From: Fuscovulum sp.
GTDB lineage: Bacteria; Pseudomonadota; Alphaproteobacteria; Rhodobacterales; Rhodobacteraceae
Length of the DNA: 64,000 nucleotides
Reading direction: 5' to 3'
Assembly (NCBI GenBank): GCA_035192965.1
Contig: CP136571.1
Span: 1,446,501-1,510,500, forward strand
This document shows, piece by piece, positions 30,183 through 53,907 of this stretch. Both the position numbers and the translations under genes were made by a program. Below the pieces are notes generated by a model. The model was not told where the DNA came from. It worked only from the letters and a program-made list of their open reading frames with translations, and made no database searches. Positions within the stretch are counted from its first letter, which is position 1; the number at the start of each line of letters is the position of its first letter.

Positions 30183-30201
30183 TTTATCGTGCGATAAATA
30201 A
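30183..30201. promoter_or_regulatory. Putative TetR operator, site 1
   Basis: TTTATCGTGCGATAAATAA holds the perfect palindrome TTTATCG-tg-CGATAAA. It lies between the divergent TetR gene and cyclase gene, 39 bases before the cyclase start. The pattern TTTATC-N5-ATAAATAA recurs with identical spacing at 32434-32452 and, in near-identical form, at 53889-53907. Confidence 0.8.
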
Positions 30202-30240
30202 CAACGCGGCAGCGCCGCAAGAATAGCGGGAGGAGTGAGG

Positions 30241-31200
30241 ATGGCAATGAAGGTCAATCGCGCCAAGATCTATGAGGCGGCGCAGGAACTGTCGAACTGG
30301 GGTCGCTGGGGGCCGGAGGATCAGATCGGAACCCTGAACCTAGTCACGCCCGAAGATGTGGCCGCCGCGGCAAAGCTGATCAAGCGCGGCAAGACATTCG
30401 CGCTGGGTCTGCCGTTGGATGAAAAGATCCAGTCGGGGTTGTTCGGGGGGCGCTGGAACCCGCTGCACCAGATGCTGGCGACCGGCACGGATGCGGTGGC
30501 GGGCGTGCAAGATGGGGATGGCAAGGCCTATCTGCGCTATGCCGATGATGCCATCAATCTGCCGATGCAGTGTTCAACGCAGTGGGACGCGCTGGCGCAT
30601 ATCTTTCTCGATGACAAGATGTGGAACGGCTACCCGGCCACGCTGGTCGACGTGCAGGGGGCCAAGAAGAACGGCATCGAACACACCCGCGACAAGATGG
30701 TGGGGCGCGGCGTCCTGCTGGATGTGGCGCGGTGGAAGGGGGTCGATTCCCTGCCCGACGGCTATCCGATCACCAACGCCGATCTTGATGCCACGGCGGC
30801 GGCACAGGGGGTGGACATCCGGCGCGGCGATTTCGTGATCGTGCGCACCGGCCATCAGGAGCGTTGCCTCGCCAAAGGTGACTGGACCGGCTATGCGGGC
30901 GGCGATGCGCCGGGCCTTGCCTTCGAGACGGCCTACTGGATCCGCCAGCACGACATCGCGGCGATCTGCGCCGATACCTGGGGTTGCGAAGTGCGTCCGA
31001 ATGAAACGGATGAGGCGAACCAGCCTTGGCATTGGGTGGTGATCCCGGCCATCGGGATCACCATGGGCGAAATCTTTTTCGTCAAGGAACTGGCCGAGGA
31101 TTGCGCGGCGGATGGGGTTTACGAATTCTTCTTCTGCGCGCCGCCGATGAACGTGCCGGGGGGATGCGGGTCGCCCATCAACCCGCAGGCCATCAAGTAA
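30241..31200 (+). CDS. Cyclase-family metal-dependent amide hydrolase (kynurenine formamidase-like fold)
   Basis: A 319-residue protein of the PF04199 cyclase/amidohydrolase family. These use metal-bound His/Asp residues to hydrolyse amides, often ring-opened or cyclic amides. It shows STQWDALAHIFLDDKMWNG (the HxxxD-like metal region, here with D and H), RGVLLDVARWKG and GDFVIVRTGHQE. ATG at 30241 follows GGAGGAGTGAGG. It is the first gene downstream of the site-1 operator and converges on the flavin monooxygenase gene with an 8-base overlap of ends. The exact substrate is not deducible. Confidence 0.87.
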   Translation: MAMKVNRAKIYEAAQELSNWGRWGPEDQIGTLNLVTPEDVAAAAKLIKRGKTFALGLPLDEKIQSGLFGGRWNPLHQMLATGTDAVAGVQDGDGKAYLRYADDAINLPMQCSTQWDALAHIFLDDKMWNGYPATLVDVQGAKKNGIEHTRDKMVGRGVLLDVARWKGVDSLPDGYPITNADLDATAAAQGVDIRRGDFVIVRTGHQERCLAKGDWTGYAGGDAPGLAFETAYWIRQHDIAAICADTWGCEVRPNETDEANQPWHWVVIPAIGITMGEIFFVKELAEDCAADGVYEFFFCAPPMNVPGGCGSPINPQAIK

Positions 31201-32407
31201 CGGGATAATCCGGGGCGGCGGGAACAACCGCCGTCTCGGCCATAATGCGGGCAAGGTTGGGGTTGTTGCGGCCGTCTTGGTTGCTGCCCTCATCCGGCCC
31301 TGCAAAGATATAGCGGCCCAGACGTTGCGCCGTCGCATGGGCCAGTGCGGCGGCGGCGTGGCGTTCGGTGCTATAGGCTGCCAGCGCCTGCGTCACCGTT
31401 CCTGCCGTCAGGTGCCGCGCCAACGCCTCGGCATCAGCGGCGGCCTTGGTCACCCCCATGCCGACATGGGGCCGCGCGACACAGGCGGCATCCCCGGCAA
31501 GGGCCACGCGTCCGGCGGCAAAGACGGGCGAGAGATGGTCGTAGATCGGGGTGAAGAAGGGCCGCTCGGACCGAGCGAGAACCTCAAGGAACGGTTTGGC
31601 AAGATGGTTGCGGGCAAAACCCTGCATCCGGTCCAGCACATCATCACGCACCAGTGGCGGCGGGATGGTGACAGGGTGATGAATGCCCTTGGCATCGGTC
31701 AGCATGTCGGCCAGTTCGCCCGCCTCAACCGGGGCATACCAGACAAAGTTGTATCGCCGGTGTCCCGGCCGCAGGTCATTGCCGGGCCCTGCAATCGGAT
31801 ACCCAAGGATCTGCGTGCCCTGCGGCAGGAAAAACCCGAAACTGTCGAACACCTGATCGCGAAGGTCGGGATGCAGGTCCGCTTCACGGGCCAGACAGCG
31901 CCAGACGACATAGCCGGAATAGACGGGCTGCACCTCTGGCTGCATCTGTCCGCGCAGGGCAGAGCGGAAGCCATCCGCCCCGATCAGCACGTCAGCCTCG
32001 AACTGGCTGCCATCTTCGCAGGTCAGCTTGACGCTGTCGCCATGGTCATCATAGCGCGCCACCGCCTTGTCGAGGCGATAGCCACCATCCGGCACCAATG
32101 CGCGCAACAGGGAATGAACGCGGTCCCATGAGGTGACGATCTGCGGCAAGGGCAGGGTGGCGACGCGATCACCTGCCAAATCAAAGGCCGCCCGATCCTG
32201 CACCTGCACGCCCAACTCGGTGATTGGCGCCCCGGCGCGGGCAATCAGATCCAGCAGCAGGTCATGGGTGACGATCCCCGCGCCGCGCCCCGACAATTCG
32301 CTGCGCGACCGTTCCAGAACAACCGTGTCCCACCCGGCCTTGCGCAGAAAGGCGGCGCAGAACAGCCCGCCGATGGAACCGCCACAGATGACCGCACGCC
32401 GAGACAT
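31193..32407 (-). CDS. FAD-dependent aromatic monooxygenase, 2,6-dihydroxypyridine 3-hydroxylase-like
   Basis: A 404-residue class A flavin monooxygenase. The dinucleotide fold is AVICGGSIGGLFCAAFLRKAG and the second FAD motif LAGDAACVARPHVGMGVTKAA. The DG-type motif is VLIGADGFRSALR. The blocks SGRGAGIVTHDLLLDLI and YSGYVVWRC are those I associate with the dihydroxypyridine hydroxylase branch rather than salicylate hydroxylases. It would hydroxylate an electron-rich (hetero)aromatic ring using NAD(P)H and O2. It is divergent from the cupin gene over a TetR-type site, so both are probably induced together. Confidence 0.87.
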   Translation of the reverse strand: MSRRAVICGGSIGGLFCAAFLRKAGWDTVVLERSRSELSGRGAGIVTHDLLLDLIARAGAPITELGVQVQDRAAFDLAGDRVATLPLPQIVTSWDRVHSLLRALVPDGGYRLDKAVARYDDHGDSVKLTCEDGSQFEADVLIGADGFRSALRGQMQPEVQPVYSGYVVWRCLAREADLHPDLRDQVFDSFGFFLPQGTQILGYPIAGPGNDLRPGHRRYNFVWYAPVEAGELADMLTDAKGIHHPVTIPPPLVRDDVLDRMQGFARNHLAKPFLEVLARSERPFFTPIYDHLSPVFAAGRVALAGDAACVARPHVGMGVTKAAADAEALARHLTAGTVTQALAAYSTERHAAAALAHATAQRLGRYIFAGPDEGSNQDGRNNPNLARIMAETAVVPAAPDYPVT

Positions 32408-32430
32408 CCAGACTTCCTTGCCAGATTTCG

Positions 32431-32452
32431 TTATTTATCATATTATAAATAA
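32431..32452. promoter_or_regulatory. Putative TetR operator, site 2
   Basis: TTATTTAT-N6-ATAAATAA is a perfect 8-bp inverted repeat in the 73-base divergent gap between the flavin monooxygenase and cupin genes. Within it, TTTATC-N5-ATAAATAA (32434-32452) matches site 1 at every conserved base and with the same spacing. Confidence 0.75.
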
Positions 32453-32480: not shown

Positions 32481-32879
32481 ATGTCCGCCCATGCTGATCC
32501 CCAAGCGCCGCACTGGTCGCCCGCGTTGGTGGCCGAGGCGGCTGGCGCGCGCGACAACGGCCGTGTCGGTTCGCGTCTGGTGGATGAAACATCCGAATAC
32601 CGCATCTGGCTGATCGAGATCGCGCCGGGGGATCGGATGCCGTTTCATACCCATGTGCTGAACTATTTCTGGGTGGCCACCTCCCACGGGCGGGCGCGGT
32701 CGCGCAATCCCGATGGCCGTGTGGTCGAGATGGACTATGCCCCCGGCGATACCAGGCACATGCATTTTGCGGCGGGCCAGTTCATGACGCATGATCTGGA
32801 AAACATCGGCAACACCGTCCTGACCTTTACCACAGTCGAGAACAAGCTGAGCCCGAACCGCCCCCTGCCGCTGGATTAA
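32481..32879 (+). CDS. Small cupin-domain protein
   Basis: A 132-residue single cupin. Motif 1 is present in degenerate form (IAPGDRMPFHTHVLNYFWVAT, with a His pair) and motif 2 as APGDTRHMHFAAGQFMTHDLENIG. It likely binds a metal, but whether it is an isomerase, a dioxygenase or a non-catalytic partner cannot be told. Its promoter shares TetR site 2 with the monooxygenase. Its stop codon overlaps the stop of the convergent flavin reductase gene by four bases. Confidence 0.85.
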   Translation: MSAHADPQAPHWSPALVAEAAGARDNGRVGSRLVDETSEYRIWLIEIAPGDRMPFHTHVLNYFWVATSHGRARSRNPDGRVVEMDYAPGDTRHMHFAAGQFMTHDLENIGNTVLTFTTVENKLSPNRPLPLD

Positions 32880-33468: not shown

Positions 33469-33486
33469 ATATCTGTCTATAGATAT
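33469..33486. promoter_or_regulatory. Palindrome in the flavin reductase/LysR divergent promoter
   Basis: ATATCT-N6-AGATAT lies in the 100-base gap between the divergent flavin reductase and LysR genes, 17 bases before the LysR start. Spacing and AT-richness suit a LysR-type recognition site. Regulator assignment is inferred from position. Confidence 0.65.
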
Positions 33487-33503: not shown

Positions 33504-34445
33504 GTGAACTTTCGCCAATTGTCGACCTTTGTGGGCATCTTTGAGGAGGGGTCGTTCAACCGCGCCGCCACGCGCCTGAACGCCACGCAATCTGGCCTGT
33601 CGATGCAGATCAAGCAGTTGGAAGAAACGCTGGGCACCACGCTGTTTGACCGCTCCGCCCGGGGGGTAACCCCCACGCATGCCGGACAGCGCCTGTACGA
33701 CACCGCCGTTGATATCCTGCGCCGTCTGGAAGGGGCCGAGGCAGAATTGCGCAACCTGTCCGGCACGATAAGCGGGCCGGTCCGGATCGGCCTGATGCCC
33801 ACCTTCACGCGCGGCGTGTTGGCCCCGACGCTCAGCCGCTTTCTAGCCGATCATCCAAATGTCGATGTGACGGTGGTCGAGGCTTATTCCGCCGCGCTGA
33901 TGGATCGTCTGGCCGAAGGTGAGGCGGATTTCGTCGTGGTGCCGCAGGATGGTGGGCGCACGGGGATGCGCAGCCGCCGCCTGGGCACGGATCGCGAATT
34001 TCTGGTCTGCCGCCCCGGCGGACCGATCCCGCATCTGACGCCCGTGAGGCTGGCTGATGTCACACCCCTGCGGCTGGTCCTGCCCGCCAAGGGCAATGTG
34101 CGCCGGGACCGGCTGGATGATTTTATTGCCTCAAACGGGTTGACGGTCGGCAAGATCATCGACATGGACGCGATGTTTGCCACGCTGGAACTGGTGGCAA
34201 CGTCCGATTACGCCACAGTGCTGCCCGCCACCATATGCCGCAAGGATATCGACGGACGTGATCGTTGGCTGCATCCCCTGACCGGGCCTGAACTGACGGT
34301 CAGCTATGTGGTGGTTGAACCTGCCCGCAAAGCGATGAGCCCGGCAGCCGCCGCCTTCCTGCGTTATCTGGAAGAGGAATATCGCCGCGCCGACGCGGAA
34401 TGGACGTCCTTGATCGGGCCATCCGAGGCCAATCGAAAAATCTGA
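33504..34445 (+). CDS. LysR-family regulator of the monooxygenase genes
   Basis: A 313-residue LysR protein. The DNA-binding helix region is FRQLSTFVGIFEEGSFNRAATRLNATQSGLSMQIKQLE (given here only as a landmark of the family fold, residues 3-40), and an effector domain starts near VRIGLMPTFTRG. The GTG at 33504 (reading MNFRQL) is preceded by AGGGTGAT; a GTG at 33495 is the alternative. It is divergent from the flavin reductase and directly upstream of the luciferase-like monooxygenase operon, so it probably activates one or both. Confidence 0.9.
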   Translation: MNFRQLSTFVGIFEEGSFNRAATRLNATQSGLSMQIKQLEETLGTTLFDRSARGVTPTHAGQRLYDTAVDILRRLEGAEAELRNLSGTISGPVRIGLMPTFTRGVLAPTLSRFLADHPNVDVTVVEAYSAALMDRLAEGEADFVVVPQDGGRTGMRSRRLGTDREFLVCRPGGPIPHLTPVRLADVTPLRLVLPAKGNVRRDRLDDFIASNGLTVGKIIDMDAMFATLELVATSDYATVLPATICRKDIDGRDRWLHPLTGPELTVSYVVVEPARKAMSPAAAAFLRYLEEEYRRADAEWTSLIGPSEANRKI

Positions 34446-34525: not shown

Positions 34526-35623
34526 ATGCAGCTTGGCTTTTTCACCATGCCGATCCACCCGCTGACCAAGGATTGGCGTCAGTGTCTGCGTGAGGATCAG
34601 GAAGCCTTCCTTCTGGCCGATGAGTTGGGCTTCACCGAAGGCTATGTCGGCGAGCATGTCACCGATCTGGCGGAAAACATCACCTCCTGCGCCCTGTTCA
34701 TCGCGACGCTGGCGGGGCGGGTGAAGAATATCCGCATGGGTACCGGCACGGTGAACCTGCCCAACAGCCATCCTGCCCATGTGGCAGGGCAGTTGGCGAT
34801 GCTGGATCATCTGCTGGACGGTAAGTTTAACTTCGGGATCAGCCCGGGCGGCCTGCTGTCGGATGCCGAGATTTTCGGCAACCTCGACAATGACCGCAAC
34901 GCCATGTTCCTTGAAGCCATCGACATGGTGCTGGCGCTGTGGACGCAGGAAGCGCCCTATAACCTTAAGGGCAAATACTGGAACATCTCGACCGAGCGGA
35001 CGCTGATGGGCGAGATCGGGCAGGGCAAGATCGGCAAGCCCTTGCAGCGCCCGCATCCGCCCATCGTGGTGACGGCCGTTGCGCCGTTTTCCAAGGGGGT
35101 GACGGCGGCGGCAGCGCGTGGGTGGGACCCGATCTCGGCCAACTTCCTGATGCCGAAATGGGTGGCCACGCATCGCGACAGCTATGCTACGGGCTGCGCC
35201 GAAGGCGGGCGGGCGGTGGATTTTGGCAACTGGCGCGTGGCGAAAAGCATCTTCGTCGCCGATGACCTGAACACCGCGCGGGAATACGCGCTTGGGGCCG
35301 GGTCGCCCTATGTGCATTACTACAAATCGCTGGTGACCAAGCTGAAGAAGAACGGGCGGTCCAACCTGTTCAAAGATGATCCGAACATGTCGGATGACGA
35401 TGTGACGCTGGATTACGTGCTGGACCGTCTGGTGATTTGGGGCACGCCCGACAAAGTAGCCGATGAACTGCTGGCCTTCCGCGATCAGGTCGGCCCCTTC
35501 GGCACGCTGCTTTACGCCGGGCATGACTGGACGGATGTGGCGCTGGCGCGGCGGTCCAAGGTGCTGCTGGCGGAAAAGGTGCTGCCCATGGTGAACTCGG
35601 CTGTGGCAGAGGCTGCGGAATGA
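34526..35623 (+). CDS. Luciferase-like (LLM class) flavin-dependent monooxygenase
   Basis: A 365-residue TIM-barrel monooxygenase using reduced FMN. Family features are MQLGFFTMPIHP at the barrel start, GFTEGYVGEHV, IRMGTGTVNLPNSHPAHVAGQ (active-site/phosphate region) and GKFNFGISPGG. Relatives include RutA (pyrimidine ring opening), SsuD (alkanesulfonate) and LimB-type enzymes; the sequence alone does not settle which reaction. It is the first gene of a tightly overlapping run of eight, and the flavin reductase at 32876 would feed it. Confidence 0.88.
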   Translation: MQLGFFTMPIHPLTKDWRQCLREDQEAFLLADELGFTEGYVGEHVTDLAENITSCALFIATLAGRVKNIRMGTGTVNLPNSHPAHVAGQLAMLDHLLDGKFNFGISPGGLLSDAEIFGNLDNDRNAMFLEAIDMVLALWTQEAPYNLKGKYWNISTERTLMGEIGQGKIGKPLQRPHPPIVVTAVAPFSKGVTAAAARGWDPISANFLMPKWVATHRDSYATGCAEGGRAVDFGNWRVAKSIFVADDLNTAREYALGAGSPYVHYYKSLVTKLKKNGRSNLFKDDPNMSDDDVTLDYVLDRLVIWGTPDKVADELLAFRDQVGPFGTLLYAGHDWTDVALARRSKVLLAEKVLPMVNSAVAEAAE

Positions 35624-36411
35624 CGCGGATCGCGGTTCCGGTGGCCGGGGCCACGCTGTCCGCGCAGGTGGATGGATCGGCGGGCAAGCCTTGGCTTTTG
35701 CTGTCAAACTCGCTGGCGGCCGATCTGACCATGTGGGACGACCAGATGGAGGTGCTGACGCGCAGCCACCGGGTGGTGCGCTATGACACGCGCGGGCATG
35801 GGCAAAGCACGGCGTCGGACGGGGCCTATGACTTTGATCTGCTGGTCGCCGATATGCTGGCGGTGCTGGATCATGTGGGCGCAGAACAGGCAGATGTGAT
35901 CGGGCTGTCTCTGGGCGGGATGACGGCGCTGGGTTTGGGCCTCGCGCATCCGGGCCGGGTGCGGCGGATGGTGGTCTGCGATGCGCGGGCCGACAATCCG
36001 CCCCCTTTCGTGCAAGGCTGGATCGACCGGATTGCCGTGGTGCAGGCGAATGGCACCGCCGCACTGGTGGATGGCACCTTGGCGCGCTGGTTCACGCCCG
36101 CCTGTTCCGAAGAGCCCAAGGCGCGGGCGGCGGCGATGATCCGCGCCACGTCGGCTGCGGGATACATTGGCTGCGCCAAGGCCCTGATGGGGCTGGATTA
36201 CCTGCGCCATCTGGGATCGATGCAGCCGCCGGTGCAGTATCTGGTCGGGGCCGAGGATATGGGCGCGCCGAAAGAGGCGATGGCGGCGATGGCGGCGGCC
36301 ACGCCGGGGGCCGGGCTGATCATTCTGGAAGGCCTCGCACATATTCCCAACATGGAAGACCCCGAGGCGTTTCACGCCGCCCTTGCCGATTGGCTGGAGG
36401 CCAGCGCATGA
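35620..36411 (+). CDS. Alpha/beta hydrolase, 3-oxoadipate enol-lactonase-like
   Basis: A 263-residue hydrolase with a complete catalytic set: nucleophile elbow IGLSLGGMTALGL (Ser), acid near GAEDMGAPK, His in EGLAHIPNMEDPE. The N-terminal half (NSLAADLTMWDDQME, YDTRGHGQS) is that of PcaD and RutD-type enzymes, which open enol-lactones or hydrolyse amides in aromatic and pyrimidine breakdown. Start and stop overlap the neighbours by four bases each. It likely acts on the product of the monooxygenase. Confidence 0.88.
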   Translation: MTRIAVPVAGATLSAQVDGSAGKPWLLLSNSLAADLTMWDDQMEVLTRSHRVVRYDTRGHGQSTASDGAYDFDLLVADMLAVLDHVGAEQADVIGLSLGGMTALGLGLAHPGRVRRMVVCDARADNPPPFVQGWIDRIAVVQANGTAALVDGTLARWFTPACSEEPKARAAAMIRATSAAGYIGCAKALMGLDYLRHLGSMQPPVQYLVGAEDMGAPKEAMAAMAAATPGAGLIILEGLAHIPNMEDPEAFHAALADWLEASA

Positions 36412-37298
36412 CCCTGCCGCGCGTGGGCCTGATCGGGTTGGGCATCATGGGGATGGCCTATGCCACCAACCTGCGCCGCGCCGGGGCCACGGTTCTGGGC
36501 TTTGATCCTGTGCTTGCGGCGCGGGAGGCGCTGGACGGCCTTGGTGGGTGCGGCTGCGCCACGGCGGCCGAGGTGGCGCAGGGGGCGGATGTGATCCTGA
36601 TGGCGCTGCCATCGGTCAAGGCGCTGGAGGCGGTGGTGGCCGAGATGCGGCCCCACCTGCGCGTGGGCATGGTGATTGCCGAGATGGGCACCTTGCCGCT
36701 GGAGGCGAAAGAGGCCGCGCGGGCGTCCTGCGCCGAGGTGGGCGTGGCGCTGCTCGATTGCCCGGTTTCGGGCACAGGGGCGCAGGCGGCGACGGGCGAT
36801 CTGGTGGTGTTTGCCAGTGGCGAGGCGGCGGATGTGGCGGTGCTGCACCCGGTATTCGCGGCGCTGGCGCGGGATATCCGGCATGTCGGACCGTTCGGCG
36901 CCGGCATGAAGCTGAAGCTGGTGGCGAACCTGTTGGTGACGATCCACAACCTTGCCACTGCCGAGGCGCTGCTGCTGGCGGAAAAGTCGGGGCTTGATCT
37001 TGGCATGGTCTATGATGCGATCCGGTCGGGTGCCGGGAATTCGCGCATGTTCGAAGTGCGCGGCCCGCTGATGATCGACGGCCGCTATGAGCCCGCGACG
37101 ATGAAGATGGATGTCTACCAAAAAGACCTCGCGCTGATCATGGATCACGCGCGCGACGTGGCCTGTCCGGTTCCGTTGATGGCGGCAAGTCTGCCCTTCT
37201 ATTCGGCGGCCCTGGCGCAGGGTCGGCACAAAGAAGACACGGCGGCGCTCTTCGCAGTGCTGCAACAAATGGCCCCCGGACCGGAGGAGACGCCATGA
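36408..37298 (+). CDS. NAD(P)-dependent beta-hydroxyacid dehydrogenase (3-hydroxyisobutyrate dehydrogenase family)
   Basis: A 296-residue dehydrogenase with Rossmann motif VGLIGLGIMGMAYATNL, substrate-binding DCPVSGTGAQAATGDLVVF, and the catalytic lysine region GAGMKLKLVANLLV. Family members oxidise 3-hydroxyisobutyrate, reduce tartronate semialdehyde or sulfolactaldehyde, or reduce succinic semialdehyde. It is coupled by ATGA overlaps to the genes on both sides. Confidence 0.9.
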   Translation: MTLPRVGLIGLGIMGMAYATNLRRAGATVLGFDPVLAAREALDGLGGCGCATAAEVAQGADVILMALPSVKALEAVVAEMRPHLRVGMVIAEMGTLPLEAKEAARASCAEVGVALLDCPVSGTGAQAATGDLVVFASGEAADVAVLHPVFAALARDIRHVGPFGAGMKLKLVANLLVTIHNLATAEALLLAEKSGLDLGMVYDAIRSGAGNSRMFEVRGPLMIDGRYEPATMKMDVYQKDLALIMDHARDVACPVPLMAASLPFYSAALAQGRHKEDTAALFAVLQQMAPGPEETP

Positions 37299-37729
37299 GC
37301 GTGACATTGGCTGAGGCGGAAGTGATCGCAGACGGCACACTGAGCGCCGGACAGCGCAGGGGCGCGCAGCCGCTGACCGTGGTCGTGCTGGATGCAGGCG
37401 GCCATGTCGTGGTGATGAAACGGTCCGACAACAGCGGGATTTTGCGCTGTGAGATTGCGCATGGCAAAGCCTATGGCGCGCTTGGCATGGGGTTGCCCAG
37501 CCGGACACTCTTTGCCCGCGCGCAGGACAACCCCAATTTCTTTACCGCGCTGGCGGCGGCGTCGGGTGGGCGGATGGTGCCCAATCCGGGCGGCGTGCTG
37601 CTGCGGGATACGGCGGGGCGTATCATCGGCGCGGTGGGCGTCAGCGGTGATACCGGCGATATGGACGAGCTTTGTGCCATGGAAGGCATCGGTCTGGCTG
37701 GCCTGACCGGCGATTGCGGCAAACCATGA
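37295..37729 (+). CDS. GlcG/HbpS-family protein
   Basis: A 144-residue protein of the GlcG/HbpS (DUF336) family with PLTVVVLDAGGHVVVMKRSDN and GGRMVPNPGGVLLRD..IIGAVGVSGDT. These small proteins often accompany catabolic operons; some bind haem or cobalamin, while most have no known role. There is no signal peptide, so it is cytoplasmic here. Translation is coupled to both neighbours. Confidence 0.88.
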   Translation: MSVTLAEAEVIADGTLSAGQRRGAQPLTVVVLDAGGHVVVMKRSDNSGILRCEIAHGKAYGALGMGLPSRTLFARAQDNPNFFTALAAASGGRMVPNPGGVLLRDTAGRIIGAVGVSGDTGDMDELCAMEGIGLAGLTGDCGKP

Positions 37730-38457: not shown

Positions 38458-38472
38458 GAGGGAGACAGGGCC

Positions 38473-39780: not shown

Positions 39781-39793
39781 AGGGGACAGGACC

Positions 39794-40798: not shown

Positions 40799-40802
40799 GG
40801 CG

Positions 40803-44117: not shown

Positions 44118-44169
44118 GGGGCGAAAACAAGTCACGAAAAATCAACAAAAATTCTGGGAGGAACGACCA

Positions 44170-45204: not shown

Positions 45205-45212
45205 CCCTGCGC

Positions 45213-45236
45213 GGGCAGTCCCCATCGGGGCTGCCC
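45213..45236 (+). terminator. Hairpin after the importer operon
   Basis: GGGCAG-t-CCCC-atc-GGGG-c-TGCCC forms a strong interrupted stem nine bases after the binding-protein stop codon. No long T-tract follows, so termination strength is uncertain. Confidence 0.6.
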
Positions 45237-45319
45237 GTCACCCATCCTGATCTTCACCACGGAATTGCGCCTTCAGGCGGTCCGATTGGCATTACTCCGA
45301 CCCTCAAAAGGACTGTTCC

Positions 45320-46414
45320 ATGTCTCATAGCACGATAGATACGGCCGATCGCGGCGATTACGTAAACCGGTACGGGCCGACCGCTGCCCGCCAGCGGCCC
45401 GACGGCGCAAAGCGTTTGAAAACGCCCACGGTGGATATTCACGCACACGTCGCCGTCCCCGAGGCCGCCGCTTATATCGCCCCGCATCTGGTGATGACCG
45501 ATATCGCCATGGTCCGGCATTCCAATGCGGAAACCAAATCGATCAACATGACCCAAGACGCCGACCGCAAGGTTGCCATGGTCGATATGGATGACCGCCT
45601 GGCCGTGCTGGATGCGATGGGGATTGATTTTCAGGTCGTCGCCCCGCCGCCTTTCCAATGCTATTACTCCGTCCCGGTCGAACATGCCGTCAAGGCCAGC
45701 CGCATGGTGAACGAAGGGATTGCAGGCTTTGTCGCCAAGCGCCCGGATCGCTTTGCCGGGCTTGGCACCGTGGCCATGCAGGACGCAGCCGAGGCGGTGA
45801 AAGAACTTGAATACTGCATGAACACGCTGGGGTTCAAAGGCGTGGAGGTGCTGACGAACGTCCATGGCGCCGAACTCGCCGCCCCGCAATTCGCGCCCTT
45901 CTGGAAGCGCGCGGAAGAGTTGGGCGCACTTGTGATGATCCATCCCAACGGGTTCACCCATGGCGACCGCTTCCATGATTACTACTTCTCGAACGTGATC
46001 GGGAACCCGCTGGAAACAACGATTGCCCTGCATCACCTGATCTTCTCCGGCACTTTGGAGCGGATGCCGGATCTGAAGATTCTGGCAGTGCATGGCGGCG
46101 GCTATCTGCCATCCTATTCCGGCCGGATCGACCATGCCTGGGGCGCACGCAAGGACAGCCATGCCGACCTGCCGCATCCGCCGACGCACTACCTGCGCAA
46201 GGTCTATTTCGATAACGTCGTCTTCACCCCGCATCAGTTGGAATATCTGGTCAAGGTCTATGGCGCGGACAAGATCGTGATGGGCACCGACTATCCCTAT
46301 GACATGTGCGATTACGATCCGGTGGAACATGTTATCAGCGCCGGGCTTTCGACCGAGGACACCGCCAAAGTCGCCGGCGGCACCGCTGCACGGCTTTTGG
46401 GCCTGTCGCTCTGA
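45320..46414 (+). CDS. ACMSD-type amidohydrolase/decarboxylase (amidohydrolase family 2)
   Basis: A 364-residue metal-dependent TIM-barrel enzyme: HxH metal motif in TVDIHAHVAVP, a His in VMIHPNGFTHGDRF, ILAVHGGGYLPSYSGR, and the C-terminal metal Asp in VMGTDYPYDM. Relatives are aminocarboxymuconate-semialdehyde decarboxylase, gamma-resorcylate decarboxylase and the PicC-type dihydroxypicolinate decarboxylase. This favours a decarboxylation or C-C hydrolysis step on an aromatic or ring-opened acid. The ribosome-binding site is AAAGGA. Confidence 0.88.
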   Translation: MSHSTIDTADRGDYVNRYGPTAARQRPDGAKRLKTPTVDIHAHVAVPEAAAYIAPHLVMTDIAMVRHSNAETKSINMTQDADRKVAMVDMDDRLAVLDAMGIDFQVVAPPPFQCYYSVPVEHAVKASRMVNEGIAGFVAKRPDRFAGLGTVAMQDAAEAVKELEYCMNTLGFKGVEVLTNVHGAELAAPQFAPFWKRAEELGALVMIHPNGFTHGDRFHDYYFSNVIGNPLETTIALHHLIFSGTLERMPDLKILAVHGGGYLPSYSGRIDHAWGARKDSHADLPHPPTHYLRKVYFDNVVFTPHQLEYLVKVYGADKIVMGTDYPYDMCDYDPVEHVISAGLSTEDTAKVAGGTAARLLGLSL

Positions 46415-46420
46415 TCCTTT

Positions 46421-46447
46421 GGGCCGCTGGCCTTTGGCTTGCGGCCC
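46421..46447 (+). terminator. Hairpin between amidohydrolase and deacetylase genes
   Basis: GGGCCGC and GCGGCCC are separated by 13 bases that can pair further (TGGCC/GGC) and are followed by TTTCCCC. It lies 6 bases after the amidohydrolase stop, so it may be a terminator or attenuator. Confidence 0.5.
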
Positions 46448-46482
46448 TTTCCCCTGAGACCTGACAAGGAAAGACCTGCCCG

Positions 46483-47355
46483 ATGCGCATGAGCGACCGC
46501 GCGCCCTATGAGGCGTTCCCTGACCGCCCAAAGCTCACCCTGCCCGGCGGGGCGCGGGTGGCGGTTTGGTTCATCGTGAACATCGAAGAATGGGCGCTGG
46601 AGCGGCCCATGCCGCGGCAGGTGCTGACCCCGCCCATGGGCAACCCGTTGCAGCCCGATCTGCCCAACTGGGCCTGGCATGAATACGGGATGCGGGTGGG
46701 CTTCTGGCGCATCCTCGATGCGCTGCAATCGCGCGCGTTGCGGGCAACGATGGCGCTGAACGGCAATATCGTGAACAGCTATCCGCGCATCGCCGAAGCC
46801 GCCCGCGACGCCGGGTGGGAGTTCATGGGCCACGGCTTTGTGCAGCGCCCGATGCACCAACTGGATGACCAGCGCGCGGCGATTGATGCCACGGTGGCCG
46901 CGATCAAAGGCTTCACCGGCAAGGCCCCCGTGGGCTGGGAAAGCCCCGGTCTGACGGAAACGGAAGCAACTCTGGATCATCTGCGCGCGGCAGGGATCGA
47001 ATATGTGGCCAACTGGCCCATCGACGATCTGCCCTCGGTTCTGCACACCAAGCACGGGCCGATGTTGCAGGTGCCCTATACAGTGGAAACCAATGACATC
47101 GTGGTGCATGCGGTGCAGCACCTGCCATCGGATGGGTTCATGAACCGCTGCATCGATCAGTTCGACCGCCTTTATCAGGACGGCGAAACCCAGCCGCGCG
47201 TCATGGCGATTAGCCTGCATCCCTATCTGTCGGGCGTGCCGCATCGGATCGGTTATCTGGAGCGTGCGATTGATCACATCCGCAGCCATGACGGCGTGGT
47301 CTGGATGACGGGCGAGGAAATCGCCGGATGGTATCGCGGGGAAATGGGGCTTTAG
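46483..47355 (+). CDS. Polysaccharide deacetylase-family hydrolase (PuuE-like)
   Basis: A 290-residue NodB-fold protein without signal peptide. It carries VAVWFIVNIEEWALERP (metal/acid region), GWEFMGHGFVQRPMHQL (His) and VMAISLHPYLSGVPHR. Cytoplasmic members of this branch are cyclic-amide hydrolases such as the allantoinase PuuE rather than sugar deacetylases. Opening a C-N bond of a ring or amide would suit the neighbouring cyclase and amidohydrolase. The end overlaps the convergent YdcZ-like gene by four bases. Confidence 0.85.
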   Translation: MRMSDRAPYEAFPDRPKLTLPGGARVAVWFIVNIEEWALERPMPRQVLTPPMGNPLQPDLPNWAWHEYGMRVGFWRILDALQSRALRATMALNGNIVNSYPRIAEAARDAGWEFMGHGFVQRPMHQLDDQRAAIDATVAAIKGFTGKAPVGWESPGLTETEATLDHLRAAGIEYVANWPIDDLPSVLHTKHGPMLQVPYTVETNDIVVHAVQHLPSDGFMNRCIDQFDRLYQDGETQPRVMAISLHPYLSGVPHRIGYLERAIDHIRSHDGVVWMTGEEIAGWYRGEMGL

Positions 47356-47798
47356 GCGCGCGACAACAGCACGCCACCCGCCACCATCGCCAGACCGGCG
47401 ATCCGCTGCCATGTGATCGGCTGTACCGGCAGGCCGAAAGCCCCGAAATGATCCAGCAGCATCGCCATGACCAACTGGCCAAGGATCCCTGCCATGGCCG
47501 CCGTCTGCGCCCCGGTGATGGGGATCATCATCACCATCATGGTGATGTAAAATCCCCCCAGCGCCCCCCCGATCCAGGCCCAGGACGGGGCATTGGCGAT
47601 GAAACCGGTCACAGGCCATGCCCCGCGCAGCACAACGACGCAGCCCATCACGAGAAAGCCAACCAAGAAATTGATACAGGCGGCAAAGGTGGCATCGCCC
47701 GCCGCACGCGCCAGCGCCCCATTGATCGGGGCCTGCATGGCCAGAACCGCGCCGGCGGCGATCAGCCCCGCAAGGGCAACGGCAAAACTCGCGCTCAC
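47352..47798 (-). CDS. YdcZ-family (DMT-like) membrane protein
   Basis: A 148-residue membrane protein with four to five hydrophobic segments and the family motif AMQAPINGALARAAG near the N-terminus, then FLVGFLVMG and GAQTAAMAGILGQLVMAML. YdcZ/DUF606 proteins are half-size transporters of unknown cargo. Coupled (ATGA) to the upstream Gfo/Idh/MocA gene, which suggests an efflux or uptake role in the same pathway. Confidence 0.87.
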   Translation of the reverse strand: MSASFAVALAGLIAAGAVLAMQAPINGALARAAGDATFAACINFLVGFLVMGCVVVLRGAWPVTGFIANAPSWAWIGGALGGFYITMMVMMIPITGAQTAAMAGILGQLVMAMLLDHFGAFGLPVQPITWQRIAGLAMVAGGVLLSRA

Positions 47799-48805
47799 CG
47801 CTGGACCTGCACCTTGCTGTTGGCCGCCGCCGATTCGGCGATGGCCTCAAACACCGCCGCGCCATGGATCATTTCGTCAGGGGTGATGGGAAAGGGCGCG
47901 CGCCCCGCAACGGCGGCTGCAAAGGCGGACAGTTCCGCCGCGACGGTATCGAAACCGGGCAGGCTGTGGCGCTCCACCGGCTTCGCCGTGGCATGGCCTG
48001 ACAACGGCGCATCGGGGGCAGGGGCAAAGGTGAACTCGTCCAGATGCTGCCCCCGGATTTCGGCAATCCCGGCTGAGCCATAGACACAGAACCGATAGCT
48101 GGGCGACGTGGCCGTCATGCAGGACACATATCCCGTCATCCCTTCGGCAAAGGCCAGCAGGATCGACGTTGTGTCCTGCGTTCCCGCAGGCGTGGCGCGG
48201 TGCAGGCTTTGGCAGGTGACTTCGGTGATCTGGCCGAACAGATCGATCATCCCGTCAACCATGTGGATGCCAAGGCCCGCCATGCCGCCTGCGGGCGATT
48301 GCCGGGGATCGACGCGCCAGCTGTCGGGTTTCAGGAACAGCCCGTTTGGCGCGGTCATCGTACCTTCGACATGCAGGACAGTGCCCAAAGCACCCGAGCG
48401 CACGCGGCGTCTCAGATCGGCCATATGCGGGTGAAAGCGGCGGTTATGGCCAAGACCCACGGTTACGCCCGCCGCGCGGATAGCCGCCACCGCCGCCTCG
48501 GCCGAGGCTTTGGTCAGCGTAAAGGGCTTTTCGGCAAAGATGTGCTTGCCTGCGCGGGCGGCAGCGATCATCTGCGCCTCATGGTCCAGATGCGGTGTGG
48601 CAAGGATCACGGCATCGACACGCGGATCGGCCAGCACCTGTTCATAGCTGTCCAGCAGGTCAAACCCCTGCTCGGCGGCGAAATCCTCGGCCAAGGCACG
48701 GCGGCCCGTGGCCCCGGCGACAATTGCGATCTCTCCCCCGGAACGCGCTGCACGGGCAAGCGTCTTGCCCCACCAGCCCAGACCGACGATTGCGGCGTTC
48801 AGCAT
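47795..48805 (-). CDS. Gfo/Idh/MocA-family oxidoreductase, copy 2
   Basis: A 336-residue paralogue of the 39794-40798 gene with AIVGLGWWGKTLARAA, EKPFTLTKASAEA (catalytic Lys) and GLGIHMVDGMIDLFG. I chose MLNAA at 48805, which overlaps the upstream stop (ATGA); the longer frame lacks family likeness. Substrate unknown. Confidence 0.9.
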   Translation of the reverse strand: MLNAAIVGLGWWGKTLARAARSGGEIAIVAGATGRRALAEDFAAEQGFDLLDSYEQVLADPRVDAVILATPHLDHEAQMIAAARAGKHIFAEKPFTLTKASAEAAVAAIRAAGVTVGLGHNRRFHPHMADLRRRVRSGALGTVLHVEGTMTAPNGLFLKPDSWRVDPRQSPAGGMAGLGIHMVDGMIDLFGQITEVTCQSLHRATPAGTQDTTSILLAFAEGMTGYVSCMTATSPSYRFCVYGSAGIAEIRGQHLDEFTFAPAPDAPLSGHATAKPVERHSLPGFDTVAAELSAFAAAVAGRAPFPITPDEMIHGAAVFEAIAESAAANSKVQVQR

Positions 48806-49368
48806 CAGACAGACTCCTGCTTCGGGAAAGGATCGGGCGCGCCTGCGGGCAGGGGCACCTCGAAGGCGTTGATGGTCATGGAAATCAAGGTGTAATAGCC
48901 AAGGATGCCCACAAGCTCTACCACGGCCTGTTCGCCAAAGGCTGCGGTGGCGCGGGCATATGTGGCGGGTTGCACCTTGTGACCGCGGTGCAGTTCGCTG
49001 GCAAAGGCGTAGATGATCGCCTCGTCCTCCTGCGCAAATGCCGGGATCCGGCCTTGACGGATCGCCTCGATCACCTCTTCCGACAGGCCCGCGCTGTGGG
49101 CGATGGGGGCATGGACCGCCCATTCAAAACCCGATGCCCAGAAGGCCCCGGTCACGAGGATCGCCAGTTCTGACAGTCGCGGCGGCAGCGACGTGCCATA
49201 GCGGCAAAAGGCCCCTAGCGCCTGCGCAGTATCGGCAAGGCCGGGGCTTGTGAGCCAGACGCGCAGCGGGCCTTCGACCACACCGCGCGGGCCGGACCGG
49301 ATGGCATCGAAGATGCGCTGTTGCGCTGGGCTGAGGCGGGTTTCGTCAAGATCAGTCAGGCGGGGCAT
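48805..49368 (-). CDS. Carboxymuconolactone decarboxylase-family protein
   Basis: A 187-residue all-helical CMD-family protein: PRLSELAILVTGAFWASGFEWAVHAPIAHSAGL (roughly residues 62-95), with the Glu/His pair but no CxxC, so it is not an AhpD peroxidase. Such proteins catalyse decarboxylation or hydrolysis in aromatic degradation, or have unknown roles. First gene of a three-gene minus-strand unit with the Gfo/Idh/MocA and YdcZ genes. Confidence 0.88.
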   Translation of the reverse strand: MPRLTDLDETRLSPAQQRIFDAIRSGPRGVVEGPLRVWLTSPGLADTAQALGAFCRYGTSLPPRLSELAILVTGAFWASGFEWAVHAPIAHSAGLSEEVIEAIRQGRIPAFAQEDEAIIYAFASELHRGHKVQPATYARATAAFGEQAVVELVGILGYYTLISMTINAFEVPLPAGAPDPFPKQESV

Positions 49369-49381: not shown

Positions 49382-50212
49382 TCAGGTCAACAGCAGATGC
49401 AGAAAGCGCAGGCTTACCGCCAGCAGGAAGATGCCAAAGGCCTTTTCCAGCGTCCGGCGCGACATGGCATGCGCCAGCCGGACGCCAATCGCAGTGGTCA
49501 GCAGCGTGGTTGGCACGATCAGCACAAAGCCAAGGGCCGAGACAAACCCGATGGACCCGAGCGGCAAGCCGGCCTTGCCCAGCCCCGCCAACGCATAGCC
49601 GATGGCGCCGGGGATCGAAATCACCACCCCGATGGCAGCGGAGGTTGCCACCGCCTGATGGATCGGCCGGCCATGCAGCGTCATCGCCAGATTGGTAATC
49701 GCCCCGCCGCCAATGCCCATCAGTGCCGACAGAAGCCCCGCCATGAACCCATAAAACCGCAACAGCCAACCGGTCGGCAGATCATCCGCGATCTTCCAGT
49801 TCGCCTTGCCCAGCAGCAGTTTGGTTGCATTGGTCCCCGCAACCAGAATGAAGACCAACTGGAACACCCAAGGCGCGGAATACCGCGCCAGCACCGCCCC
49901 ACCCATCACACCCGCCAGTATCGGCACCGCCCAGACACGCACCAGCGCCATATCCACCATGCCCTTGGCGAAATGCCCCCGCGCCGAACTGATCGAGGTG
50001 GGCACGATCACAGCCAGCGATGTTCCCACTGCCAGCGGCATAGCAATCGCCTCTTCCACCCCCACCAGCGTGAAAGACAGGAACAGGACTGGCACAAGGA
50101 TCGCCCCGCCGCCAACACCGAACAGGCCGGCCAGAACCCCGGTGGCCAACCCCGCCACCACAAGCATGGCGGCCACGCCAAACAGGGTGCCGCCGTCAGT
50201 GTCCATGATCAT
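49382..50212 (-). CDS. TauE/SafE-family anion exporter
   Basis: A 276-residue membrane protein with about eight hydrophobic segments and the paired family motifs AGLFGVGGGAILVPVL and SALMGIGGGAITNLAMTL. Family members export sulfite, sulfoacetate or organic acids. ATG at 50212 follows AGGAGAG. It lies between the CMD-type gene and the molybdenum hydroxylase genes on the same strand. Its presence is the main hint that a sulfonated substrate should be considered. Confidence 0.9.
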   Translation of the reverse strand: MIMDTDGGTLFGVAAMLVVAGLATGVLAGLFGVGGGAILVPVLFLSFTLVGVEEAIAMPLAVGTSLAVIVPTSISSARGHFAKGMVDMALVRVWAVPILAGVMGGAVLARYSAPWVFQLVFILVAGTNATKLLLGKANWKIADDLPTGWLLRFYGFMAGLLSALMGIGGGAITNLAMTLHGRPIHQAVATSAAIGVVISIPGAIGYALAGLGKAGLPLGSIGFVSALGFVLIVPTTLLTTAIGVRLAHAMSRRTLEKAFGIFLLAVSLRFLHLLLT

Positions 50213-50237: not shown

Positions 50238-52586
50238 TCATGGCACCAGACCAAGACTGCGCAAAATGCGTTCTGGCGTCATGGGCATCTGGCTGATCTG
50301 CGCGCCCAGCGGACGCAGCGCATCGTTCACGGCATTCATCACAGCGCCCGATGCGCCCGAGGTGCCCGCCTCGCCCGCACCCTTGGCCCCAAGAGCCGAG
50401 GTGCTGGTGGGCGTGACCACATGCGCGATCTCGATATCTGGCATCTCGCCCGCCATCGGAACCAGATAATCGGCCATCGTCGCGGTCAAAAGCTGGCCAT
50501 CGTCAGAGAACAGGCATTCCTCGAACAGGGCCCCACCTATGCCCTGCACCACACCGCCCCGGATCTGTTCATCCACCAGCTTGGGGTTCAGGATGGTGCC
50601 CACATCTTCCACCACCCAATGGTTCAAAAGCGTAACCAGCCCTGTTTCGACATCCACCTCGACATAGGATGCCATCGCCCCGTTGCTGAACACAAATGGC
50701 ATCCCCTCAACCCGGAAATGGCGGCTGGCGATCAACTCAGCCGCCTGTCCGGCGGGAAGCTCATTGCCCCGGAAATACACCATCTGCGCCAACTCGCGCA
50801 GGGTCATGCGCTCCGTCGAGCTTGCGGCATCAATGATCGCACCGCCTGCAAGAGCCAAGGCGCTGGGCGGGCATTGCAGAACAGCTCCGGCCAGTTCCAA
50901 CACTTGCGCGCGCAATGCCACGCTTGCCGCGCGCATCGCCTCGCCCCCGATCCCCGCCCCGCGTGAGGCCCAGGTGCCACCGCCATAGGGCATATGGGCG
51001 GTATCCCCGGTCTGTACCCGGATATCTTCGGCCCTAAGGCCCAGCACATCGGCGGCGATCTGGGCGAGGATCGTTTCCGTTCCCTGTCCCTGTTCAGTGA
51101 CGGAACTGGACAGATGCACCGCACCCGACGCATCCAGCCGCACGACCGCCCCATCCTGTGCCGCAACCGGAGCACCGCCTACGCCATAAAACATCGGCGA
51201 CGGGTTGGTGATCTCTACCATGCTGACGATCCCGATCCCCCGATGCACGCCACGCGCCCGCATCGCGTCGCGTTCCGCGCAAAGCGCGTCATAGCCCATC
51301 AGTTCCTTAAGGCGGGTCAGGCAGGCCTGATGCGACAGATCGGCATACAGCATCCCCTGCGGCGAACGCACCGGATAGGCATCATCCGGGATCAGGTTCA
51401 TCTCCCGCAGCACCACCGGATCGCGGCCCGTTGCAGCGGCCAGATCGTCCATCAGCCCTTCCATCACCGCCATGGCAATCGGATGGCCCACAGCGCGGTA
51501 TTGGCAGGTGGGAACCTTTGTCTGGAACACCACTCGCAACCGGGCGCGATAGGCGGGCAGGGTGTATGGCGCGCCGATCAGGTTGATGACCTGATTGCCC
51601 TCGATCGCCGAAGAGCGGGGGTAGACGGAATAGGGGCCGATCCCCGTGATGTCATCCACATCCACGGCCAGCAGGCGCCCGTCAGGCGCCATCGCCGCGC
51701 GGGCTGTCACCCTGTGATCGCGGGCGTGGATGTCGCTTTGAAAACTTTCATAGCGGTCCGCTGCGAATTGCACCGGGCGGCGCAGCAGGCGGGCTGCGGC
51801 GCAGGCGGCCACCTCGTCGCCGTAAGTGTGGATCTTGATCCCAAAGGAACCGCCCACATCCTGCGCCACGATCCGCACCTGCGATTGCGGCAGGCCCAGA
51901 TGGGTTGCCAACACCTCCTGCATCATATGCGGCACTTGGCCCGAGTAGTTTACCGTCAACTGATCCTGCGCCGCGTCATAATCGGCCGTGATGACGCGCG
52001 GCTCCAGCGTGACGCCCGTATGGCGGCCAAAGACAAAGCGGCGTTCCACCACCGTATTGGCCGGATCGGCAAAGGCCACGTCCACCGCGCCCACATCGAT
52101 ACGCTTCTCCCAGCAGAGGTTCGACCCAAGGTCGGGGTGGATCACCGGGGCGTCGGGGGCAAGCGCAGCTTCCATGTCCGTGACCGGGGGAAGCGGATCA
52201 TAGTCCACCGTAACCAGTTCGGCGGCATCCTCGGCCAGCGCGCGGCTGCTGGCCACTATCATCACCACAGGCTCACCCTGCCAATGCGTGTGCCCGACCG
52301 CCAGCGCAGGCTGCGGCGGTGACCGCATGCCCACCATATGCGTCAGCACGCCCACCCAAGGCGTGATCTGGGTGGCCATGTCGGCCCCGTCATAGACCGC
52401 AACCACCCCCGGCGCGGCGCGCGCGGCGTCCAGATCCATCCCGGTGATCACCGCATGGGCATAGGGCGACCGGACAAAGACCGCGTGCAGCATCCGGGGC
52501 GGGGTAAGGTCGCCCACGAACCGGCCCGCGCCTTCCACCAGTCGGCGCGCATTGGGGCGGGGTAGGGCGCGGCCGATCTGGGTCAT
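50238..52586 (-). CDS. Molybdopterin-binding (large) subunit of a xanthine dehydrogenase-family hydroxylase
   Basis: A 782-residue molybdenum hydroxylase subunit. It has VGGSFGIKIHTYGDEVAA and, near the end, LGAKGAGEAGTSGASGAV with the catalytic Glu. The active-site loop reads QYRAVGHPIAM, not the AYRCSFR of carbon monoxide dehydrogenase, so CO oxidation is excluded. These enzymes hydroxylate N-heteroaromatic carbons next to ring nitrogen with water as oxygen source. Overlaps the iron-sulfur subunit gene by four bases. No XdhC-type maturation gene is present in the window. Confidence 0.92.
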   Translation of the reverse strand: MTQIGRALPRPNARRLVEGAGRFVGDLTPPRMLHAVFVRSPYAHAVITGMDLDAARAAPGVVAVYDGADMATQITPWVGVLTHMVGMRSPPQPALAVGHTHWQGEPVVMIVASSRALAEDAAELVTVDYDPLPPVTDMEAALAPDAPVIHPDLGSNLCWEKRIDVGAVDVAFADPANTVVERRFVFGRHTGVTLEPRVITADYDAAQDQLTVNYSGQVPHMMQEVLATHLGLPQSQVRIVAQDVGGSFGIKIHTYGDEVAACAAARLLRRPVQFAADRYESFQSDIHARDHRVTARAAMAPDGRLLAVDVDDITGIGPYSVYPRSSAIEGNQVINLIGAPYTLPAYRARLRVVFQTKVPTCQYRAVGHPIAMAVMEGLMDDLAAATGRDPVVLREMNLIPDDAYPVRSPQGMLYADLSHQACLTRLKELMGYDALCAERDAMRARGVHRGIGIVSMVEITNPSPMFYGVGGAPVAAQDGAVVRLDASGAVHLSSSVTEQGQGTETILAQIAADVLGLRAEDIRVQTGDTAHMPYGGGTWASRGAGIGGEAMRAASVALRAQVLELAGAVLQCPPSALALAGGAIIDAASSTERMTLRELAQMVYFRGNELPAGQAAELIASRHFRVEGMPFVFSNGAMASYVEVDVETGLVTLLNHWVVEDVGTILNPKLVDEQIRGGVVQGIGGALFEECLFSDDGQLLTATMADYLVPMAGEMPDIEIAHVVTPTSTSALGAKGAGEAGTSGASGAVMNAVNDALRPLGAQISQMPMTPERILRSLGLVP

Positions 52587-53041
52587 GGCTTGGCCCCATG
52601 ACGCGCCTGCGCCACCTCTTCCACTGAATCGACAATCGCCTGATAGCCGGTACAGCGGCAGTAACTGCCCGACAGGTGATCGCGGATTTCAGCGCGGTCC
52701 GGCACATGGCCGGATTCAAGCAATTCCGCTGCGGTCATCAACATCCCCGGCGTGCAGAACCCGCATTGCAGGGCATTGTGGCGGACAAAAGCCGCCTTTA
52801 GATCGGGCGCATCCAACCCCTCGACCGTCACCACTTCGGCCCCCTCTGCCTGCACGGCCAGCATCAGGCATCCCCGCACCGCCACGCCGTCCACGCGCAG
52901 GGTGCAGGCCCCGCAAACCCCATGTTCACAGCCATGATGCGTTCCAGTGAACCCCGCCGCGCGCACCGCATCGGCGAGGCTTTGGCGCGGTTCGGCCTCG
53001 ATCACCGTGGCTTCGCCATTCAGGCGGAAAGTAACCCTCAT
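52583..53041 (-). CDS. [2Fe-2S] (small) subunit of the molybdenum hydroxylase
   Basis: A 152-residue iron-sulfur subunit with both clusters visible: plant-type ferredoxin Cys set in HHGCEHGVCGACTL with the distal Cys in RGCLML, and the second cluster in LQCGFCTPGMLM and GSYCRCTGYQAI. It passes electrons from the Mo site to FAD. Four-base overlaps with both partner genes show a coupled medium-small-large order. Confidence 0.95.
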   Translation of the reverse strand: MRVTFRLNGEATVIEAEPRQSLADAVRAAGFTGTHHGCEHGVCGACTLRVDGVAVRGCLMLAVQAEGAEVVTVEGLDAPDLKAAFVRHNALQCGFCTPGMLMTAAELLESGHVPDRAEIRDHLSGSYCRCTGYQAIVDSVEEVAQARHGAKP

Positions 53042-53853
53042 GTCATGCGCTCCAGCAGGCGGCGGATCATCACCCGTGCCAGATGAACCTTGGTCTCGGC
53101 AGAATTGTGCAGGTCCCCCCAGACCTCCACTCCGTCAAGCGCTGCCGCCGCAGCGGCATGTGGCCCCTGCGCCAGTGCGGCCTCGGCCCCCAGATCGCGC
53201 AGCGGCCTGTCGGCAAGACCGAACCAGACCACCCGCGCCTCTGGCCCCGCCATCAGCGCCAGCCCCGCCATTGCATAATCGCCCCGCCGCCGGGTCAATT
53301 CGGCAAAGCCGTGCCGCGCCGCCGGATCGGGCAGGGGGATATGCACTTCGGTCAGCAATTCGCCGGGCGCAAGCGCGGTGGCATAGCTGCCTTCAAAAAA
53401 CGCATCAGCCGGAATACTGCGCCGCCCCTTTGGCCCCTGTACATGGATCACCGCCCGCAGCGCCAGCGCGCAGGCAGGCATCTCTGCCGCGGGATCAGCC
53501 AGTGCAAGGCTGCCACCAAAAGTGCCCCGGTTGCGGATGGCTGAATGGGCCACATGCTGCACGGCCTCGGCCAGCAGCGGCAGATGAGCGGCGATCAAAG
53601 GGTGACGCTCTACCTCGGCATGGCGGGTCAGGGCGCCGATCACGATGTGATCCCCCTCTCGCCGGATGCCCGAAAGCGCGGTCACCGCATTCAGGTCAAT
53701 CAGCAGGCCGGGACGATCGAGCCGAAAGTTCAACGCAGGGATCAGGCTCTGCCCACCGGCCAGAAACCGCGCCTCGCCGTCCGAATCCGCCATCACCCGG
53801 ACCGCATCCTCGACTGACTGGACGCGGACATAGTCGAAGTGTGAAGCCTTCAT
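53038..53853 (-). CDS. FAD-binding (medium) subunit of the molybdenum hydroxylase
   Basis: A 271-residue FAD subunit of the CoxM/XdhB type: FLAGGQSLIPALNFR (FAD pyrophosphate site) and IRNRGTFGGSLALADPAAE (second FAD motif). First gene of the three-subunit operon. The TetR-type site 3 lies 36 bases before its start codon, where a promoter is expected. Confidence 0.93.
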   Translation of the reverse strand: MKASHFDYVRVQSVEDAVRVMADSDGEARFLAGGQSLIPALNFRLDRPGLLIDLNAVTALSGIRREGDHIVIGALTRHAEVERHPLIAAHLPLLAEAVQHVAHSAIRNRGTFGGSLALADPAAEMPACALALRAVIHVQGPKGRRSIPADAFFEGSYATALAPGELLTEVHIPLPDPAARHGFAELTRRRGDYAMAGLALMAGPEARVVWFGLADRPLRDLGAEAALAQGPHAAAAAALDGVEVWGDLHNSAETKVHLARVMIRRLLERMT

Positions 53854-53888
53854 GCCGCCGCCCCCGATCCCGCTTTCTCGAAAGATTA

Positions 53889-53907
53889 TCTATCGAACGA
53901 TAAATAG
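53889..53907. promoter_or_regulatory. Putative TetR operator, site 3
   Basis: Read on the plus strand TCTATC-GAACG-ATAAATAG, on the minus strand CTATTTATCGTTCGATAGA. It keeps the CG-N2-CG centre and the half-site spacing of sites 1 and 2, with single-base changes in each arm. It lies 36 bases before the molybdenum hydroxylase operon and about 24 kb from the TetR gene. Confidence 0.7.

Follow-up and report, generated by a model that had tools for sequence, protein, structure and literature searches.

A palindromic operator-like element predicted to join a TetR-family regulator to ring-hydroxylating enzyme genes in Fuscovulum and related Alphaproteobacteria

The stretch of Fuscovulum sp. DNA analyzed here (64,000 nucleotides, positions 1,446,501 to 1,510,500 of contig CP136571.1, assembly GCA_035192965.1; hereafter the window) carries a putative catabolic gene cluster in which one palindromic element stands before several genes, one of them encoding a TetR-family regulator. 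The element is a 22-bp dyad with the consensus TTATTTATCGNNCGATAAATAA, consisting of 8-bp arms around 6 bp. The first predicted operator, S1 (TTCTTTATCGTGCGATAAATAA, 30180..30201, one mismatch to the dyad), lies between the divergent genes for the regulator (tetR, 29463..30122, minus strand) and a PF04199 cyclase-family protein (30241..31200, plus strand), 57 bp from the GTG start of the former and 39 bp from the ATG of the latter at 30241. The second, S2 (TTATTTATCATATTATAAATAA, 32431..32452, three mismatches), separates the divergent genes for a flavin monooxygenase (31193..32407, minus strand) and a small cupin-like protein (32481..32879, plus strand), and the third, S3 (TTATCTATCGAACGATAAATAG, 53886..53907, two mismatches), is located upstream of a molybdenum (Mo) hydroxylase operon, 32 bp from its start at 53853. 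Symmetric pairs number 9, 10, and 8 out of 11 in S1, S2, and S3, respectively. The original prediction had proposed three copies of a 19-base pattern, each placed where a promoter is expected. All three sequences are indeed there, each just before start codons (23–57 bp); the sites are real, but the 19-base frame was off-centre, the true dyad being 22 bp long. That they represent a single operator-like element is a supported reading of the sequence.

The predicted owner of these operators contains a TetR_N helix-turn-helix domain (PF00440, 43.2 bits against a cut-off of 24). The cyclase-family protein (82 bits) has a sole solved relative, the uncharacterised 5ibz, and the monooxygenase, which uses flavin adenine dinucleotide (FAD), belongs to the 2,6-dihydroxypyridine-hydroxylase type (PF22607 and PF01494; best solved chain 2vou, a 2,6-dihydroxypyridine hydroxylase, E 8e-47). 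The small protein was called a cupin in the original prediction; at a threshold of 0.001 it matches neither Pfam nor NCBIfam families. The operon behind S3 comprises, by spacing (neighbours overlap or stand no more than 25 bp apart), seven genes, all on the minus strand: those for the FAD (53038..53853, PF00941), 2Fe-2S (52583..53041, PF01799 and PF00111), and molybdopterin (50238..52586, PF20256 and PF02738) subunits of the Mo hydroxylase, a TauE/SafE permease (49382..50212, PF01925), a carboxymuconolactone-decarboxylase-like protein (48805..49368, PF02627), a Gfo/Idh/MocA oxidoreductase (47795..48805, PF01408), and, last, a YdcZ-type exporter (47352..47798, PF04657). The best solved chain for the molybdopterin subunit is quinoline 2-oxidoreductase (1t3q, E 1e-134). 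Because these enzymes include a quinoline-oxidoreductase-type Mo hydroxylase and a dihydroxypyridine-hydroxylase-type monooxygenase, we infer an N-heterocyclic ring as the target of the pathway. A literature search on pyridine, Mo hydroxylases, and TetR returned at most papers on nicotine or loosely related ones, with no substrate match; a route resembling caffeine or urate degradation, with oxidation at C8, was considered as another candidate.

Within the genome (4,225,158 bp, single contig), the 22-bp consensus matches only S1, S2, and S3 at up to three mismatches, and its reversed-pattern control matches nothing; the original prediction had treated occurrence at random frequency elsewhere in the genome as telling against it, and these three places are the only ones. 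The 19-base pattern gives nine matches in the window at up to three mismatches, against 1.8 expected (0 of 100 shuffles reach nine); six of them are the three dyads read on both strands, and the other three look like chance. Genome-wide, this looser pattern finds the three dyads alone at up to one mismatch and 12 other places at two, totalling 18 matches against 11 for its control. The inner 16-bp core, tried as a motif by itself, lacks specificity, matching 36 places in the genome where its control matches 49, and the outer bases therefore matter. With a weight matrix trained on 147 sites in other genomes, S2 obtains the highest score (36.1) and the other two sites 33.2 and 31.7, against 9.1 for the next non-overlapping place in the window and 23.1 for the best in 4.2 Mb of simulated sequence, a test that is partly circular because the training sites were chosen by their likeness to the window consensus.

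Starting from the motif, we scanned 292 genomes of the order, which are all assigned to one family, and found a match with up to three mismatches in 18 of them, own genome included. The other 17 were inspected in 20 stretches that cover them all. Six have the site in a setting of tetR, cyclase, or Mo hydroxylase genes (G244, G167, G229, G133, G047, and G210); all multi-site genomes are among these six, as are all sites with at most two mismatches. The TetR profile reaches at least 280 bits in seven of the 292 genomes (the lowest at 280.8, the next genome at 236.2), the cyclase is found (E up to 1e-60) in exactly the same seven, and the motif is present in all seven as compared with 11 of the 285 others (Fisher p 9.5e-10). 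By these sequence criteria, regulator and motif co-occur across genomes. Of 14 second-tier TetR genomes (163–236 bits), five carry a variant with four or five mismatches in the ~3-kb locus around tetR; the other nine have no site within six mismatches there. A second, more distant tetR-cyclase pair also exists in G047 (188 bits, 69% identity; contig C6, ~10437–13349, loci L142 and L151), with no site within six mismatches in 3.6 kb around its tetR. G229 is instructive as regards distance: tetR, site, and cyclase lie at ~118 kb of a contig on which the other sites, at Mo-hydroxylase, luciferase, monooxygenase, and transporter genes, occupy 477–502 kb, that is, 359–384 kb from the tetR-cyclase site, and this genome has only one TetR match. 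Neighbouring position therefore does not explain the shared operators.

Recurrence was also followed in loci of TetR homologues drawn with an alignment of 27 sequences (26 relatives plus the query); the best 80 of 540 loci were kept (41–98% TetR identity, 1.40 Mb, by their titles mostly Rhodobacterales and Hyphomicrobiales). At least one site with up to five mismatches is found in 75 of the 80. At this threshold the loci hold 196 matches, a few of them overlapping, against one for the reversed pattern; at up to four mismatches they hold 130, against a mean of 0.285 and a maximum of 12 for 200 permuted palindromic half-sites. We counted sites in 230-bp upstream windows, with starts extrapolated from tblastn hits, and recounted from the farthest in-frame start; one ABH row with an impossible distance was an artefact and was excluded. 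A site with at most five mismatches precedes the cyclase gene in 44 of 47 cases (37 at up to four mismatches), the Mo FAD subunit gene in 44 of 49 (23), the monooxygenase gene in 17 of 22 (14), and the cupin-like gene in 14 of 24 (12). Upstream sites are rarer for HIBDH (9/31), luciferase-type (9/46), and HDH (5/21) genes and for tetR itself within 200 bp (11/80). At up to five mismatches none was found upstream of LysR (0/25), flavin reductase (0/48), deacetylase-like (0/34), Gfo1 (0/30), SDR (0/20), Mo large subunit (0/43), FeS (0/51), HbpS (0/9), ABC2 (0/7), or Amid2 (0/15) genes, and shuffled controls of the upstream windows gave 0–0.002. Thinning at 85% TetR identity left the pattern in place (cyclase 33/36, Mo FAD 26/31, monooxygenase 16/21, cupin-like 13/19, controls still 0), as did counting from the farthest starts (44/47, 45/49, 18/22, and 14/24, respectively), from which LysR stays at 0/25. 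In many loci from Hyphomicrobiales the gene behind the site is not one of the query set and is followed by flavin reductase and tetR; because of this arrangement, flavin reductase serves as a position control and does not prove that this gene is never a target. The same site before orthologous genes, and its absence before other genes of the locus, amount to a phylogenetic footprint of what is predicted to be a conserved local regulon. That three AT-rich promoter elements merely resemble each other by chance, with no shared regulator, finds some backing in the other 22-bp palindromes of the window, where palindromy alone is not unusual (eight 22-mers with at least 10 of 11 symmetric pairs); against it, the sites are unique in the genome and recur at the same genes elsewhere with controls near zero, and these comparative data make coincidence very unlikely, to the point of being negligible.

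The original prediction spoke of a TetR-controlled 25-kb regulon, which is too wide. The block at ~32.9–47.4 kb, from the flavin reductase gene to a polysaccharide-deacetylase-like gene, has no site by weight matrix, and 12 further intergenic stretches in and beside the cluster score at best 3.3, as compared with 31.7–36.1 for S1–S3; hidden TetR sites between the LysR and deacetylase-like genes were thus sought and rejected. Since this block also has its own LysR (33504–34445) and GntR (about 40839–41516) genes, we divide the cluster into two adjacent units of control: a predicted TetR unit made up of tetR, the cyclase, monooxygenase, and cupin-like genes, and the seven-gene Mo-hydroxylase operon, and a second one, from flavin reductase to the deacetylase-like gene, probably under LysR/GntR control. 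Between the divergent flavin reductase and LysR genes lies another palindrome, ATATCTGTCTATAGATAT (ATATCT-N6-AGATAT, 33469–33486), kept in loci L021–L023 and one base off in L024, which is likely a LysR-type site for the middle block. Could the 22-bp palindrome instead be the operator of the cluster LysR or GntR, with the TetR gene beside S1 by coincidence? Both genes do sit in the cluster, and LysR relatives are nearby in 25 of the 80 loci. Yet none of those 25 has the site in its LysR upstream window, the LysR gene is preceded by the different palindrome just described, and in G229 the 13 kb examined around the tetR-cyclase island (L106) contain the site but nothing that matches the window LysR or GntR, all of which renders this alternative improbable. 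The block at 34526–47355, which combines an NMT1-type ABC transporter with luciferase-type monooxygenase, alpha/beta hydrolase, histidinol-dehydrogenase-like, and SDR genes, recurs in L074, L095, and, up to the contig limit, L056 (Aureimonas kin), stretches in which we found no cyclase or Mo hydroxylase match. Luciferase-type genes in relatives have a site within 420 bp in none of 23 cases with LysR nearby and in nine of 23 without (p 0.0015), a contrast on which we do not lean because Bradyrhizobium is the label of six of the nine (the remaining three being two Alphaproteobacteria metagenome-assembled genomes (MAGs) and one Reyranella MAG). In other relatives, tandem sites lie further upstream of luciferase blocks.

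The TetR gene beside S1, already the candidate of the original prediction, is the best one by its recurrence and co-occurrence with motif and cyclase. We propose, with a probability of about 0.85, that the three palindromes are operators of the protein encoded at 29463–30122. A TetR dimer would bind each palindrome and block the likely promoters of tetR, of the cyclase, monooxygenase, and cupin-like genes, and of the Mo-hydroxylase operon, until a pathway compound, presumably a catabolic substrate or intermediate, acts as inducer and releases it. Repression rather than activation by this TetR is suggested by the position of the sites 23–57 bp from start codons in the window, which favours blocking of RNA polymerase; in relatives, the median distances at the four main targets are 27–70 bp (starts extrapolated). 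The best promoter-like match around S1 and S2 (TTGCCA-17-TATTAT, 32418–32446) moreover has its -10 inside S2. Alternatively, TetR may bind these sites and act mainly as an activator, or as both, like LuxR/SmcR, since its nearest solved relatives, LuxR/SmcR/HapR, activate as well as repress (PMC2628434). Given the short distances and the covered -10, we regard this as unlikely, and polymerase blocking relieved by an inducer as the most likely mode of action.

Besides the dual behaviour of the LuxR-type relatives, several points weigh against the proposal. In eleven genomes a single site with three mismatches stands in a stretch of 13–19.5 kb that lacks matches to tetR, the cyclase, and the Mo hydroxylase, and G244 has one outlying site without these genes (L102). 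The 280-bit line separating the seven TetR genomes was drawn only after the scores had shown a gap there. The 80 loci were selected by TetR similarity and come from related, non-independent genomes; eight lack a TetR-proximal site, and five lack any site. Counting from the farthest starts gives single sites before control genes (flavin reductase 1/48, Gfo1 1/30, FeS 1/51), and several controls (Mo large, FeS, and some flavin reductases) are operon-internal genes, which makes LysR the most telling one. Around S1 and S2, where 0.9 promoter-like matches are expected, there are two, of which one falls outside the sites; S3 has none. Finally, co-evolution of operator and DNA-binding domain was considered and rejected: a Mantel test on 72 loci correlated regulator with operator (0.30, 0 of 2000 permutations as high), but with ligand-domain distance held constant the correlation falls to 0.03 (496 of 2000 as high) and gives no support beyond common descent.

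As for the regulator itself, its AlphaFold model (mean predicted local distance difference test score 88.6, ten helices) has a clean all-helical two-domain TetR fold, and its best PDB matches are TetR-family proteins. The nearest named relatives, with 98 and 93% identity, come from Rhodobacteraceae and Rhodobacter MAGs. Among relatives, the recognition-helix stretch TQPLLYRYF hardly varies, which fits the little-changed operator. The closest solved relatives, in sequence and fold, are the master quorum regulators LuxR, SmcR, HapR, and OpaR of Vibrio, also of the TetR family. The box published for them, TATTGATAAA-TTTATCAATA, is likewise an AT-rich dyad and similar in length to the 22-bp element (PMC3323551). 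Centred on the consensus, 12 of 20 bases are equal (11 for S1, 15 for S2, and 12 for S3); since 11% of random AT-rich palindromes do as well as 12/20, this likeness is not significant for the consensus and only suggestive. Moreover, the window TetR is ~22% identical to the LuxR group over the fold, misses the HapR family cut-off (NF040929, 33.2 bits against 350), and belongs to a local catabolic cluster, whereas the LuxR group governs a quorum regulon.

Classic local TetR/AcrR repressors serve a divergent gene pair with one operator beside the regulator's own start. The window system resembles them in its divergent pair sharing an operator beside the regulator start, but differs in that the same operator stands at two further promoter regions, up to 24 kb off in the window, and that further operator regions lie 359–384 kb off in G229. 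Another TetR-family protein, RutR, has a different palindrome as its operator, and the window TetR misses its cut-off (TIGR03613, 22.7 bits against 368). RutR controls pyrimidine catabolism in Proteobacteria, and together with FabR, FadP, LiuQ, and PsrA it represents the TetR family among 33 Proteobacterial regulons, none of which, by the pathways named in the excerpt of that study, corresponds to such a gene set (PMC5343134). Titles and abstract openings in the searched literature, which did not extend to the RegPrecise database itself, contain no description of this motif or regulator.

Other elements were observed in passing. A look-alike palindrome of the TTTACCGTTTGATAAAAAA type marks the 5' end of a gene whose product, an NAD(P)-binding oxidoreductase, we take to be PreT-like (its best NCBIfam match is below cut-off), in the Fuscovulum genome (L152 2503–2521; C1:2790702–2790720) and in four others (L109, L110, L111, and L120). 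Four of the eleven single-site genomes share this element, which is perhaps the site of a different regulator. At 60834–60898 of the window there are three adjacent near-perfect 22-bp palindromes (60834, 60855, and 60877), the last two alike (CAAATTTCTTCGAAGAAATTTG and CAAATTCGTTCGAACGAATTTG). At 20183–25128, a GATase and a DAO-type oxidase accompany two glutamine-synthetase-like genes, a set that resembles a gamma-glutamylation amine pathway.

In a wider and more tentative reading, which we hold at slightly less than even odds, a TetR subfamily with a nearly invariant recognition helix, acting through a single operator that hardly differs between Rhodobacterales and Hyphomicrobiales, would govern an undescribed degradation of N-heterocycles. 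The components of this pathway (PF04199 protein, Mo hydroxylase, and the dihydroxypyridine-type and luciferase-type monooxygenases) may have been shuffled, split along the chromosome, or handed over to LysR while the operator was kept. The operator would mark genes that likely work together across dozens of Alphaproteobacteria, narrowing both the set of enzymes to be considered and the search for the inducer, and, once an effector is identified, it could be used as a component of biosensors.

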